Shown here piece after piece: positions 56,303 to 60,830 of a stretch of DNA of 64,000 nt. The position numbers and the translations under genes are program-made. Positions within the stretch are counted from its first letter, which is position 1. Each line of letters begins with the position of its first letter. The notes beneath the pieces are model-generated. The model saw only the letters and a list, made by a program, of their open reading frames with translations. It was not told where the DNA came from and ran no database searches. This stretch comes from Candidatus Micropelagos thuwalensis. GTDB lineage: Bacteria > Pseudomonadota > Alphaproteobacteria > RS24. The stretch spans positions 62,001 to 126,000 of the forward strand of contig NZ_AWXE01000004.1 in assembly GCF_000469155.1 (NCBI RefSeq), written 5' to 3'.

Positions 56303-56776
56303 TCATGCTTCATAAGGCAAAGATGAATGATGAAGAACAATCTTTAACCTACCATTGTCATCTTTTCGGTAACCCCAACTTTTGTCTACTTTAACTTCAT
56401 CACCATTATTATTTACTAGTGTCACCCAACCTATCCACATTGCTACATTTTCTTCAATGAAAATTGCTGATGTATCCGAGTCAACTTTTCTCCAATACTT
56501 AATTCCAAAACCTGTATCATTCGGAAAATTTGGATTTTCACCAATAAAGTATGAAAGTGCACCTTCTTTACTTGGTCGAAATGTTTTACTTCCCCCACTC
56601 AATGTGGGTTTAAAAAGAATGGGTCCAAACTCAAACCCATATAAATTATCGAGAAATTCGTTAGCTACTACTCTGGCTTTATCAATACCTGAGTTTTCAT
56701 AAGCCTCGGAGATTTTTAATATTCCTAATCCCCAATCATGGCGTGCCTGATCAAGGGTGTCTTCATTAATTGTCAT
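56303..56776 (-). CDS. NTF2-like/SnoaL-type protein
   Basis: About 157 residues, no signal peptide. An N-terminal helix (DTLDQARHDWGLGILKISEAYE) then a curved-sheet pattern with GALSYFIGENPNF, AIFIEENVAMWIGWVTLVN and the ending LKIVLHHSSLPYEA, resembling CaMKII-association/NTF2-like proteins. Start at ATG 56776 (MTINED) rather than the GTG nine bases before. Function unknown; 32 nt upstream of the hydrolase, possibly one transcript with it and purT. Confidence 0.7.
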   Translation of the reverse strand: MTINEDTLDQARHDWGLGILKISEAYENSGIDKARVVANEFLDNLYGFEFGPILFKPTLSGGSKTFRPSKEGALSYFIGENPNFPNDTGFGIKYWRKVDSDTSAIFIEENVAMWIGWVTLVNNNGDEVKVDKSWGYRKDDNGRLKIVLHHSSLPYEA

Positions 56777-56901
56777 TTTAAGCACTCTATTTTTGAATTA
56801 ATTATTTTATAAGTATATATGAAATTCTATTTTTTTTAATTTTATCAGATATTCAGACTGAAAAAATAAACAACTTAATATATCAATTTAAATACTAAAT
56901 T

Positions 56902-56930
56902 TGGGCGAGATAGGTGAACTACCTCGCCCA
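56902..56930 (-). terminator. terminator hairpin after the TonB receptor
   Basis: GGGCGAG and CTCGCCC pair, extended inside by AGGT/ACCT, starting 17 nt after the receptor stop. On the minus strand AAATTTAGTATTT follows rather than a pure T run, so strength is moderate. Confidence 0.65.
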
Positions 56931-56946
56931 TATTATTGAATGAGAT

Positions 56947-59094
56947 TTAGAAACTAAAACCTAAAGAAAGTCTGATATCTCTACCTGACTCTGGCACTAG
57001 ATCTTTAATTGCACTGGTGTGCCGTCTTATTTCTTCATCCGTCGCGTTACGAATTAAAGCTGACACTTTTAACCCATTAATTGATGAAGGAGTCCACTCA
57101 GCACCAAAATCAACTTGAGTGAAGCTATCAGTTGGCAATTCATTTAGACCAATATCGTCTTGTTTTGAATTATGAGTAAAATCAACTTTATAGAGTACCT
57201 CACCAACTTTGCTAGACAAACCAAGCATCAGTTTTTCGGGAGGTATTCGTGGAAGATTGCTGCCATTATCTAGCTCTCCTTCAATCAAACTATATCTTAG
57301 AGAAGTAGATAATTTATACTCAGAGAAATTAACCGAAGTATCATAAGAAAATTCCAAACCAGAGATTTCTGCATCTTGCTGAAGAAAATCGAATTCATCT
57401 TCTGATCCAGCTCTTCTTTGAAGATAAATAAAATCTTCATAATCATTTTCAAAAATGGCGAGTCTTAAACTTGAGTCTCCCCATTTTTTTCGTAGATATA
57501 TTTCGGTACTAAAACTTTTCTCTTTATTTAAGTCTTCATCACCAAACTCATCTCGTTGAGCTGCAACATGTTTTCCACCTGCGAACAATTCAACCTGAGA
57601 AGGTGCTCTTTCTGAATGAGATAAAGAACCACCAAACAAAAGTCCACCATTGAATTTTTTGGCCAAACCAACAGATAAGTTGGTTAAATTATGATCAATG
57701 GTTCCATGGCTCTCATGGTCTTCGTCTCCGTGATCACCTTCATCATCGTCATCATCGTCATGCTCCTCTCTAAATGCTTCTTGTTCAATAGAGTCATATC
57801 TGCCAGCGAGTTCAATTAACCAGCTTTCATTTTCAAGCTGAGAGAGGAAAAATAGGCCAATTTCAGATCTGTCACTTTCAGGCAAATACTGCCCATGACC
57901 ATGACCATCTCCATCTCCATCTCCATCGCCCTCATCGTGGGACTCAGATATAACTTTTAGGTCCATATCTCTATAATTAGAACCAAAGGTTGTCTGCCAG
58001 TTACCAAGATTTGCTGAGGCCTCTAAACGAAAGTTACTTTCGTCTTGTTCATATTGAATGCCAGTCTCAGCACCTTCCATTTCTTCTTGCTCGAATGAAG
58101 AATGAGATAAATCAGCACGTATAGAATTGAATAAATTTCCAGACAAATCATGACTTAATCGAGCCTGGAAAGTCCGATGTTCTGAGTCAATTTGAACTGA
58201 CTCTTCTTCACCATGCTCCTCACCATCATGATCATCTCCATCATGATCATCTCCATCATGATCATCTCCATCATGATCATCTCCATCGTGGTCTTCACCA
58301 TGACCGTGGGAATGACCAGGCACTCCATAGGTTTTATCATCAGCAGCAATCAAAAATGAAAGAGTGGTTCTATCATTTCCAAAATTACCTCCAAATGAAA
58401 TACCTTGATTTTCCCCAAAAGTATTTTCAGCATCTTGAGATCTATCAGCTGGTATTTCCTCACCTTCTGATTGAAGCTGAGCCACACTTTCAGCATGAGT
58501 AGGAATTCTCATGTTATCAGCATCTTCATAATATGCTGAAAATGCAAAATTACCCATTCTAGTAAACAACGAGGCTGAATTTTCATCAGCCGAGTCACCG
58601 TATCCTAATGTCAGTGAGGTTTCATTTTCACCAGATGCCATAAGTTTGTTAAAACTATTAACCACACCTGACGATGAGTAAGGACCATAACGAAGAGAAG
58701 CAGGTCCTTTCAACACTTCAATTCTTTCAAGATTATGTATTGGAACGCCGTTAGAGTGATCATCACCAGTGTAAGCTATATCACCTGTGGACATTCCATT
58801 ATTTAGAACACCAATTCTGAAACCACCAAGGCCACGAATGATTGGCTGCCCAACTGAGGGACCATAACCTGAACTATCTAAGCCAGGCAATTTTGCTAAT
58901 AATGAACCTAAGGATAAATCTGAAGACGAACTAATTTCATCTTGGTCCAAAATATCTACTGTTGAAATTACTTTATCAATCGATTTTTTATAAGGGTTGC
59001 TATATACAACAACCTCATCAATTTCCTGTGCTGACAAACTTGTTCCAAACACAAAAGTTACGAGCAGCGCTACTGCCCATTTAAAAGCTTTCAT
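56947..59094 (-). CDS. TonB-dependent receptor with His/Asp-rich loops, probable metal uptake
   Basis: About 715 residues. Signal peptide (ending SLSAQE), TonB box-like EVVVYSNPY, plug domain (SLLAKLPGLDSSGYGPSVG, IRGLGGFRIGVLNNG, PIHNLERIEVLKGPASLRYG) and a 22-strand-type barrel ending in SLGFSF. Three metal-loving loops are striking: about 261-295 (HSHGHGE then repeated DDHDG), about 386-401 (GDGDGDGDGHGHG) and about 444-468. ZnuD-type zinc receptors have comparable loops, so zinc or another divalent metal is inferred. Start at ATG 59094 with AGGAGA upstream. Preceded by a small Cys/His protein gene. Confidence 0.9.
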   Translation of the reverse strand: MKAFKWAVALLVTFVFGTSLSAQEIDEVVVYSNPYKKSIDKVISTVDILDQDEISSSSDLSLGSLLAKLPGLDSSGYGPSVGQPIIRGLGGFRIGVLNNGMSTGDIAYTGDDHSNGVPIHNLERIEVLKGPASLRYGPYSSSGVVNSFNKLMASGENETSLTLGYGDSADENSASLFTRMGNFAFSAYYEDADNMRIPTHAESVAQLQSEGEEIPADRSQDAENTFGENQGISFGGNFGNDRTTLSFLIAADDKTYGVPGHSHGHGEDHDGDDHDGDDHDGDDHDGDDHDGEEHGEEESVQIDSEHRTFQARLSHDLSGNLFNSIRADLSHSSFEQEEMEGAETGIQYEQDESNFRLEASANLGNWQTTFGSNYRDMDLKVISESHDEGDGDGDGDGHGHGQYLPESDRSEIGLFFLSQLENESWLIELAGRYDSIEQEAFREEHDDDDDDEGDHGDEDHESHGTIDHNLTNLSVGLAKKFNGGLLFGGSLSHSERAPSQVELFAGGKHVAAQRDEFGDEDLNKEKSFSTEIYLRKKWGDSSLRLAIFENDYEDFIYLQRRAGSEDEFDFLQQDAEISGLEFSYDTSVNFSEYKLSTSLRYSLIEGELDNGSNLPRIPPEKLMLGLSSKVGEVLYKVDFTHNSKQDDIGLNELPTDSFTQVDFGAEWTPSSINGLKVSALIRNATDEEIRRHTSAIKDLVPESGRDIRLSLGFSF
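58225..58284 (-). repeat. 15-bp tandem repeat in the receptor gene
   Basis: Four perfect copies of ATCATGATCATCTCC (read on the plus strand), with a degenerate copy on the right. On the coding strand they spell repeated Asp-Asp-His-Asp-Gly in an outer loop of the TonB receptor. Copy number could vary by slippage. Confidence 0.9.
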
Positions 59095-59126
59095 AAAATT
59101 TCTCCTTAAAAAATATTTTTTTTTAT

Positions 59127-59399
59127 TCAAAGGAGAATTGGGGGACCTCTTGGGAGATAAGTTGGAAAGCTATAAGTTAGAAAAAATTGTTGAGTAAGTT
59201 GATAAAATTCATCAAAAAAATCAGATGAAGTCGTTTCATTGCTAGTATTTATATTTTTAATTAAATCACAATGAATACAAGTAACTTCATATTCATCAGC
59301 TTCAAAATGACCATGAAATTCATGCTCATGAATATGCAATCCCCCAATCAAAAGGGATATTATTGATAGTATTTTTAATGAGTTATAAATTATAGACAT
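59127..59399 (-). CDS. small membrane-anchored His/Cys protein next to the TonB receptor
   Basis: 90 residues. One N-terminal hydrophobic segment (LKILSIISLLIGGL), directly followed by a His cluster (HIHEHEFHGHFEADEY, about 22-37) and a CIHC motif (about 41-44), then a loop and a C-terminal RGPP motif. DUF2946-like proteins found beside metal receptors share the Cys pair and the RGPP ending; that match is by eye. Its stop is 32 nt before the receptor start, so the two form an operon. Probable role in metal handling. Confidence 0.7.
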   Translation of the reverse strand: MSIIYNSLKILSIISLLIGGLHIHEHEFHGHFEADEYEVTCIHCDLIKNINTSNETTSSDFFDEFYQLTQQFFLTYSFPTYLPRGPPILL

Positions 59400-59472: not shown

Positions 59473-60515
59473 CTAACTATGAGTGGATTGGCTTGAGCTG
59501 AAACCCTCAGAAAAATAACCCTTTAGGCGTTGTTTAGGATTAGAAATAAAGTTGCCACGATTTTCTTCATCATCTCCTTTTGAGCAAGCTTTAATTAAAA
59601 CATCAATGTATCCAGTAGCTGTCTCCATTCTATTAACATAATCATTCTCTCTAAGAGCGTTATGAGTTTGCTTCAACTTCCAGCAAGGAACATACATAAA
59701 TAAGTGATGTTCAACATGATAATTTACCCAGTAGGGAGCTAAAAAAATTCGCACTAACCAATTAGCTCTAGTCGAACGTGCATTACGAAACGGGTCATTG
59801 TCATCAGGCACTAGCGCATGTTCAGCAATACTGCGGATTCTTATAATCGCCATGTTGTAAGTAAAAAAAGGTATAAGCCAAAGTGTAAGATAAAAGCTCC
59901 AATGAAATATTAAGTAGCAAAAAATAAAAATTATAATATTCGCTATAATCTCATATCCTAGTTTTTGCCAGAAATGGTATATTCTATTAATTGGTGATAA
60001 ATCTTTGCCTCCAATTGCATCTAAAAATTGAGCTTTTCGCTGGTGAAAGGCCGTTTGACCGGTAAGGTCACGAAACATTTTTCTCATAAAACTTTTACGC
60101 GTTATAGGAAATGGCTTCGAGAGAACAAGATCAGGATCTTCTTCTTGTTGAGTGTTTCTGTGATGTTTTAAATGATACCGACGATATATTTCAGTTCGAG
60201 CAAATAAAGGATAAGCAACAAAAAAAGTTACTTAAAATATCATTAAAATCATGATTACGGGATAGAGCATTATGAGCTGCATCGTGCATTATTACTGCAA
60301 GACCTAACTGACGAGCGCCAATTAGCATCACGGCAAGCACATAAGTCAGAGGATTAGGAAAAAAGAAAAAAAGACATCATAGCCAATACAATTATAGACC
60401 ATGCATGTATGACTAATAATGAGGAAACAAATTCAGAGCGTTCACGAAGATAACATAAAATTTTACGATCCAGTAAATCAGACGTTTTTAATTTTATTAT
60501 TGATGTTTGCGCCAT
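59473..60515 (-). pseudogene. fatty acid desaturase family gene with two homopolymer frameshifts
   Basis: All three His boxes of a membrane desaturase are found in successive frames: HDAAHN, HLKHHRN and, in the intact 3' part, YHVEHHLF. The start is ATG 60515 (MAQTSIIK). Shifts fall in the A7/A6 runs (plus strand) at 60359-60372 and 60220-60226; removing one base from each gives 1041 nt, exactly 346 codons plus stop. Both are +1 changes in homopolymers, so sequencing error is a real alternative to decay. Divides the AT-rich block from the region after it. Confidence 0.82.
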
Positions 60516-60830
60516 ACTAATTCCTATTTAATATTCATAATATAAATCTTTATTTTTTTTAAAAATATCTCTAGTGAGCATTATAAAAATCTAAAGTATT
60601 GGGGATTAAATATTACAAATTAAATATCCAAGTACATATATTTTATCCAATACCTCTTTATTACATTAGCATTTTCAGATTATTACAACAGTCCATTATT
60701 CAGAGGCTGCCATTGCGGCTACTGAACTGAAATTTAATGATATCGCATGAACGAGATAACCAAACAATCTGGCTTGCTAAACGCTTAACAAATTTCTCCC
60801 CCCTCCTCTTGTCAGCGAAGATCAAACATG
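60516..60830. other. gene-free stretch between the two desaturase genes
   Basis: About 315 nt with no supported ORF on either strand. The half next to 60516 is AT-rich. On the minus strand an AGGAGGGGGG run (near 60800-60812) looks like a ribosome-binding site, but no reasonable start or coding frame follows it. Confidence 0.6.

Follow-up and report, generated by a model that had tools for sequence, protein, structure and literature searches.

The locus and the question it raises

The question posed by this locus is what a short open reading frame of 90 codons does immediately ahead of a gene for a TonB-dependent receptor. In a preliminary description of the window, that is, the whole 64,000-nt stretch of Candidatus Micropelagos thuwalensis DNA analysed here (from a genome of 1.96 Mb, 99% complete), the two genes were taken to be a metal-uptake pair. 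The answer which emerges below is that the upstream open reading frame (uORF) is very probably a cis-acting, metal-sensing arrest peptide that controls the translation of a ZnuD-type receptor. The principal elements are as follows.

59127..59399, minus strand: small uORF, 90 aa, with a hydrophobic N-terminal export/anchor segment, a His cluster, CIHC and a C-terminal RGPP-ILL (ORF list, codon-position bias)
56947..59094, minus strand: ZnuD-type TonB-dependent receptor, 715 aa (ORF, profile, PDB sequence, fold)
56902..56930, minus strand: intrinsic-terminator-like hairpin with a 12 bp stem (5 such sites in the region against 1.4 expected)

For the receptor, a start at ATG 59094, with the Shine–Dalgarno (SD) sequence AAGGAG, is likelier than one at TTG 59130, and the two genes are separated by 32 nt. 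The export segment of the uORF was assigned by eye. The terminator-like hairpin at 56902..56930 probably ends a two-gene unit of uORF and receptor; a promoter scan of the region (8 sites against 10.3 expected) is uninformative.

The flanking genes deserve brief comment in their own right. Upstream, a fatty-acid desaturase gene (59473-60550, minus strand) is broken, in that its 204-aa ORF begins at position 111 of the PF00487 profile and its 5' part stops in a different frame near a T-rich run, such that it may be either a pseudogene or an assembly error. On the 3' side of the receptor, the gene at 56303-56785 (minus strand) matches the metal-independent carbonic anhydrase NF047901 with 174.7 bits, against a cut-off of 350, and is without a Pfam match. 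In the PS1-clade isolate MED-G50, the nearest named relative in the comparison, the receptor is 94% identical whereas the uORF protein is 33-35% identical and the flanking genes are 74-84% identical in their DNA; the local gene order also differs. Taken together, these contrasts suggest that the receptor has been exchanged between lineages, with a boundary near its start.

The receptor

The preliminary description likened the receptor to ZnuD, the zinc receptor, and profile competition, ligand and fold tests all agree with it. Both the plug and the TonB-dependent barrel families of Pfam are matched, and in the NCBIfam ranking the ZnuD model stands first at 193 bits, followed by heme (121), siderophore (111), B12 (79) and copper (50) receptor models. 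The score does not reach the curated cut-off of the ZnuD model NF038289 (950 bits), and the protein is thus best described, as far as its sequence goes, as a ZnuD-type homologue and not as ZnuD in the strict curated sense. A sequence search of the PDB returns ZnuD (4rdr) as the best match with an E value of 5.7e-20, with OprC (4e-9), PhuR (2e-8) and BtuB (6e-8) further down, and the AlphaFold model (pLDDT 74) has ZnuD as its best PDB folds, with TMt values of 0.74-0.84. A siderophore or B12 receptor, which the preliminary description had named as the placement that would speak against it, is rejected on the ranking, on the PDB hits and on a comparison with six more TonB receptors encoded in the genome, for which siderophore models come first and the ZnuD model gives at most 36 bits.

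In ZnuD of Neisseria meningitidis, the high-affinity zinc site is formed by Asp-99, His-100, Glu-340 and His-499 (PMC4557270; PDB 4rdr/4rdt/4rvw). With the numbering of the 4rdr construct offset by 14, these ligands are placed on D112, H113, E338 and H509, which are invariant across 22 receptors. Their positions, and those of the three His/Asp-rich loops, are:

58756..58761, minus strand: D112-H113, equivalents of ZnuD Asp-99/His-100, candidate zinc ligands (alignment to ZnuD)
58081..58083, minus strand: E338, equivalent of ZnuD Glu-340 (alignment to ZnuD)
57568..57570, minus strand: H509 in GGKHVA, equivalent of ZnuD His-499 (alignment to ZnuD)
58204..58311, minus strand: first His/Asp loop, residues 262-297, five DHDG units, at ZnuD extracellular loop 3 (alignment, AlphaFold model)
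57895..57942, minus strand: second His/Asp loop, residues 385-400, GDGDGDGHGHG (sequence, AlphaFold model)
57712..57765, minus strand: third His/Asp loop, residues 444-461 (sequence, AlphaFold model)

All three of the His/Asp runs noted at the outset are present, the receptor carrying a EEHDDDDDDEGDHGDEDHESHG run besides the DHDG units and GDGDGDGHGHG. They fall in three low-confidence, disordered loops of the AlphaFold model, and the first of them, at GVPGHSHGHGEDHDG..., aligns with YGLPAHSHEYD of the zinc-capturing loop 3 of ZnuD; on these grounds the runs exceed chance. From strand parity they lie on the same side of the barrel as the ligand loops, from which we infer that they face the cell exterior. 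The five DHDG units are encoded by tandem copies of a 15-bp unit (58212-58287, 95% matches), and their number is not conserved, there being five here and three in the 94%-identical MED-G50 receptor. Such a difference between close relatives leads us to read them as plain repeat expansion within a loop that would already bind metal, and the repeat-expanded loops, part of a combination that had at first appeared unusual, are ordinary for ZnuD-type receptors.

In short, the receptor resembles ZnuD of N. meningitidis in having it as best match by profile, sequence and fold, in its D, H, E and H ligands and in a His/Asp-rich loop 3; it differs in an identity of only ~19% in the structural alignment, in two extra Asp/His loops, in its uORF and in the lack of a Zur box. 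Profile, solved structures, fold and ligands thus support a ZnuD-type assignment, with transport itself a prediction.

Known metal-sensing upstream open reading frames and a probable further case

Two metal-responsive uORFs provide the natural comparison. CruR (Bp2923, DUF2946), the uORF of the TonB receptor BfrG in Bordetella pertussis, senses copper through a CXXC motif and requires its RAPP motif for expression of the downstream receptor; it was reported as the first transition-metal-responsive uORF, its authors stating that there was no known riboswitch for copper or zinc (PMC9426467). Arrest by CruR was later shown in vitro, as given in the text of PMC12992588, which also reports that RAPP-type motifs arrest ribosomes, RGPP being the strongest in several contexts. 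In Rhodobacter capsulatus, the uORF CutF encodes an exported product that senses copper, and its action is coupled to a stem-loop covering the SD of the following gene (PMC9973294).

The M. thuwalensis uORF has the corresponding parts, all on the minus strand, and the small protein is exactly as the preliminary description had it in length, in its HIHEHEFHGH, CIHC and RGPP motifs and in its distance from the receptor:

59307..59336, minus strand: HIHEHEFHGH at residues 22-31, a His cluster that may bind metal (sequence)
59268..59279, minus strand: CIHC, residues 41-44, the first Cys 42 residues before RGPP (sequence, relatives)
59139..59150, minus strand: codons of RGPP (residues 84-87), the putative arrest motif, which ends three residues short of the C-terminus (R, P and P invariant in alignment A1)
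59130..59137, minus strand: anti-SD TTCTCCTT within the last three uORF codons (pairing tests)
59100..59107, minus strand: receptor SD AAGGAGAA, paired in a predicted hairpin spanning 59100-59137 (RNAfold MFE -10.3 kcal/mol, covariation)

As in a CruR-type operon, the uORF is the first gene before a TonB receptor, putatively exported and with a Cys metal motif; a RAPP-type motif likewise stands at the C-terminus near the stop, with a constrained Cys-to-motif spacing. The intergenic region, long in CruR-type operons, is here not long (32 nt). Indeed, RGPP three residues from the stop of a small, putatively exported protein just upstream is what a RAPP-like arrest peptide would be expected to show. 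The differences from CruR are that Pfam DUF2946 is not matched, that the motif is RGPP, that the second Cys is 39 residues from the motif against 45 in CruR (41-45 in relatives of other orders), that the receptor is ZnuD-type and not of the BfrG/OprC type found behind CruR, and that most relatives of the uORF are without CXXC. More generally, the Pfam and NCBIfam search with the 90-aa protein matched no family; the DUF2946 profile (PF11162) did not match it and gave four relatives weak scores (best E 0.078), and no DUF2946 homologue was found elsewhere in the M. thuwalensis genome.

Co-occurrence and conservation

The co-occurrence of the small protein with receptors of this kind, on which the earlier pairing depended, is borne out. 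A small ORF with Cys/His and an R-x-P-P ending lies 5' of all 20 PS1-family ZnuD-type receptors that have upstream sequence, 28-39 nt from the receptor start codon (in G014 the contig begins within the uORF and only its end is visible), as against none of the 16 other TonB receptors of the M. thuwalensis genome. The window holds no second ORF of this type besides the 90-aa uORF, and none was present at the six plasmid homologues checked (22-31% identity). The uORFs were found by means of RxPP, so that the invariance of this motif is in part a product of the search, which does not apply to the contrast of 20/20 with 0/16.

In the uORF alignment A1 the mean column identity is 28% and the only invariant columns are C, R, P and P. 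Across the family the sequences diverge to ~20% identity, with R-x-P-P and the Cys persisting. The motif takes the form R-[AGE]-P-P in PS1 uORFs, two to five residues ahead of the stop, and the Cys precedes it by 44 residues in nearly all PS1 loci, by 43 in two and by 42 in M. thuwalensis and MED-G50; outside PS1 the spacing is 44-49 residues. His residues 5' of the motif recur in relatives without fixed position, apart from one which, in most of them, precedes the motif by 49 residues. CXXC is rare, most relatives having H-x4-C with a single Cys. Substitutions among close relatives are biased to third codon positions (for example, 13/9/33 at positions 1/2/3), which indicates that the uORF is translated under selection.

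The preliminary description left the small protein as either an acceptor or a regulator. As a periplasmic or membrane metal chaperone or acceptor, it would act in trans with the receptor, and the export segment, the His cluster, the CxxC and the linkage to a metal-receptor gene would all be in keeping with this. Against that reading, the uORF is 33-35% identical beside a 94%-identical receptor, the number of ligands varies and CXXC occurs in few relatives; moreover, CruR is undetected by proteomics (PMC9426467) and secreted CutF is rapidly degraded (PMC9973294). It also leaves unexplained an invariant RxPP three residues from the stop and, as shown below, codons that pair with the next gene's SD. 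We consider it most improbable. In other words, the acceptor half of the claim is not supported, the sequence being poorly conserved, and the regulator half is favoured, since the persisting stalling motif, the Cys spacing and the pairing of codons with the SD point to a translational regulator acting in cis.

One locus (L150, genome G681) has two different RAPP-ending small ORFs in tandem before a single ZnuD-type receptor, ~65 and 443 nt upstream of its estimated start, each with His and Cys. In a Flavobacteriaceae MAG, a distant ZnuD-like receptor follows a similar small ORF (L003 2033-2371; His, Cys and C-terminal LRGPPQINLI), a pair that would reach into Bacteroidota and suggests that the uORF–receptor arrangement extends beyond Pseudomonadota.

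Predicted sequestration of the receptor SD

The receptor SD AAGGAGAA has its complement in the final uORF codons ATTCTCCTT (ATT CTC CTT), and at most PS1 loci RNAfold predicts that the SD pairs with the end of the uORF, stop codon included. When arms are swapped between the 20 loci the pairing weakens (permutation p <= 5e-5, in a thinned set too). Synonymous recoding of the tail, again over all 20, takes the mean pairing from -10.6 to -5.3 kcal/mol (z -9, with 0/1000 sets equal to the real one). Covariation was assessed on alignment A2, the 14 of 20 loci with alignable tails: 84% of cells pair, two-sided (compensatory) changes are found in 10 of 12 pairs and 0/500 shuffles do as well, whereas sliding the registers by 1-3 columns reduces pairing to 44-57%. 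RNAalifold recovers the same helix unprompted. The pairing of the uORF tail with the SD appears in consequence to be under selection.

The geometry is that expected of an arrest peptide, with a predicted SD-hiding stem-loop within reach of a stalled ribosome. With the third motif codon in its P site, a ribosome would extend about nine nt past the motif and thereby cover exactly the anti-SD. When this footprint is blocked, the SD is predicted to become more accessible: the value rises from 0.21 to 0.61 at the present locus, and most relatives go from close to zero to 0.3-0.7. Three PS1 genomes (G013, G014, G002) have a weak hairpin or none, and footprint blocking has little or no effect in them; in a fourth (G009) the hairpin is weak by the recoding test (0.16). 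Another alphaproteobacterial family provides two genomes in which the RAPP codons themselves pair with the SD. Elsewhere in Pseudomonadota, at loci where the gap measures 39-101 nt (L158, L188 and L193, for example), the tails pair with the SD region, with a mean of -7.2 against -4.6 kcal/mol when recoded.

Two simpler uses of the same elements must be weighed here. The first is plain translational coupling, in which any ribosome translating the uORF opens the hairpin, with neither arrest nor sensing. The 32 nt gap and the placing of the anti-SD inside the last codons would suit it, and transient opening by a non-stalled ribosome has been inferred for uDF_RQH; the persistent RxPP and the fixed 42-44 residue spacing to the Cys are left unexplained, however, and we regard coupling of this kind as very unlikely. 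The second is Rho-dependent attenuation, as proposed for CruR, with the hairpin secondary. CruR is the closest characterised relative and acts through Rho, but its gap is 162 nt and not 32 nt, and at the present locus it is the pairing with the SD that is under selection; this reading is, in our judgement, distinctly unlikely. The uORF thus differs from CruR in that a 32-nt gap and an SD hairpin stand in place of a 162-nt gap and Rho termination.

Zur, zinc and copper

In Caulobacter, zinc receptors are regulated by Zur through TGTTATnnnATAACA-like boxes (PMC4176598). A search for such a box upstream of 59399, as proposed in the preliminary description, came back empty: the best site matches 9/12 positions (p ~0.5). 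Nor was a Zur gene found in the M. thuwalensis genome, its two FUR-family genes being Fur and Irr by sequence and context. In a set of 80 ZnuD-type loci, Zur-like boxes with at least 11/12 matches occur at 18 of 41 loci without a uORF and at 1 of 39 with one (Fisher 9e-6, or 0.003 leaving out PS1, values which ignore relatedness). Among 26 genomes scanned, a Zur-like third FUR member is present in six uORF-less genomes, with a candidate match in a seventh (G089); of the uORF-bearing genomes scanned, only G016 combines a uORF with a Zur-like gene. Pseudomonadota ZnuD-type genes thus tend to carry, as judged from their sequences, either a uORF or a Zur box and seldom both, and the uORF switch appears to stand in for Zur, the usual zinc repressor.

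The likeliest metal to be sensed is zinc, in view of the receptor ligands, of the His and single Cys that would serve as sensor in most relatives, and of the way in which uORFs alternate with Zur boxes. What speaks against zinc is that the genome is without a detectable ZnuA and that this particular uORF carries CXXC, the copper-sensing motif of CruR. The same leader peptide could therefore be a true CruR that senses copper, its receptor importing copper or several metals, and CruR/DUF2946 uORFs do precede OprC-type copper receptors. A single ABC-3 (ZnuB-like) permease is encoded in the genome, at C1:621000-622800 (L040 7812-9831); it is accompanied by a ZnuC-like ATPase with a terminal His tail and preceded by a PCu(A)C-like gene (assigned by eye), and a search of the genome for ZnuA (PF01297) found none. 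On the other side, the receptor has the complete set of four ZnuD zinc ligands and scores 193 bits with the ZnuD model and 50 with the copper-receptor model, H-x4-C with its one Cys takes the place of CXXC in most relatives, and the same receptors in other lineages carry Zur-like boxes. Copper sensing is, on balance, unlikely.

Proposed mechanism

For the cis-acting arrest peptide, the following sequence of events is envisaged. A nascent uORF chain with its export segment and His/Cys metal ligands would be made, and the ribosome would stall on reaching RGPP, a step proposed by motif homology. At the stall, the ligand Cys would be ~45 residues from the peptidyl-transferase centre, which is to say at or just past the tunnel exit, and the leading edge of the ribosome would cover the last uORF codons with the anti-SD TTCTCCTT. 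The hairpin over the receptor SD could not then form and receptor would be made, this being the low-metal state. Ample metal would bind the His/Cys ligands and relieve the arrest; once the ribosome has left, the hairpin would close and receptor synthesis drop. This direction of response, with arrest and receptor on in low metal and off by metal binding at the tunnel exit, is the likeliest, by analogy with CruR and from economy for an importer. What computation provides directly is the synteny, the arrest motif and its spacing from the Cys, the covarying SD hairpin, the ZnuD-type site and the lack of a Zur gene or box. It should be borne in mind that a ribosome which simply read the uORF through to the stop codon would open the hairpin transiently too.

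CutF is the nearest precedent in architecture, being also exported, with a metal motif, a proline-rich C-terminus and a stem-loop which hides the next gene's SD; it differs in that the copper oxidase cutO is switched on when copper is present, whereas here arrest in metal scarcity would turn an importer on, and in that RGPP is a defined arrest motif. SecM, ApdA/ApdP and uDF (PMC10987492, and the text of PMC12992588) share with the uORF an arrest motif near the C-terminus, an export signal and an SD stem-loop opened by the stall, but the characterised members monitor protein localisation, unlike the metal sensing proposed here.

Wider meaning

A 2025 survey, PMC12992588, lists RAPP/RGPP uORFs before TonB receptors as a class and, its source data aside, makes no mention of zinc, ZnuD or RNA hairpins; our literature search found no zinc or ZnuD case of such a uORF. 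The present locus is most likely a ZnuD-type receptor gene controlled by a uORF of this kind, one that encodes an arrest peptide sensitive to metal and whose tail forms a covarying hairpin with the SD. A broader proposition, to which we attach as much belief as doubt, is that R-x-P-P uORFs ahead of ZnuD-type receptors form a widespread class, sensing zinc while they are being translated and using an anti-SD in their last codons to replace Zur at outer-membrane zinc-uptake genes in Pseudomonadota and possibly beyond.

The model joins two known designs, the CruR-like relief of arrest by metal and the SecM/CutF-like SD hairpin, and makes predictions at the level of single base pairs. Should zinc be the metal to which the uORF responds, the peptide would act as a co-translational sensor of it, and this would explain how zinc uptake at the outer membrane is controlled in bacteria without Zur.
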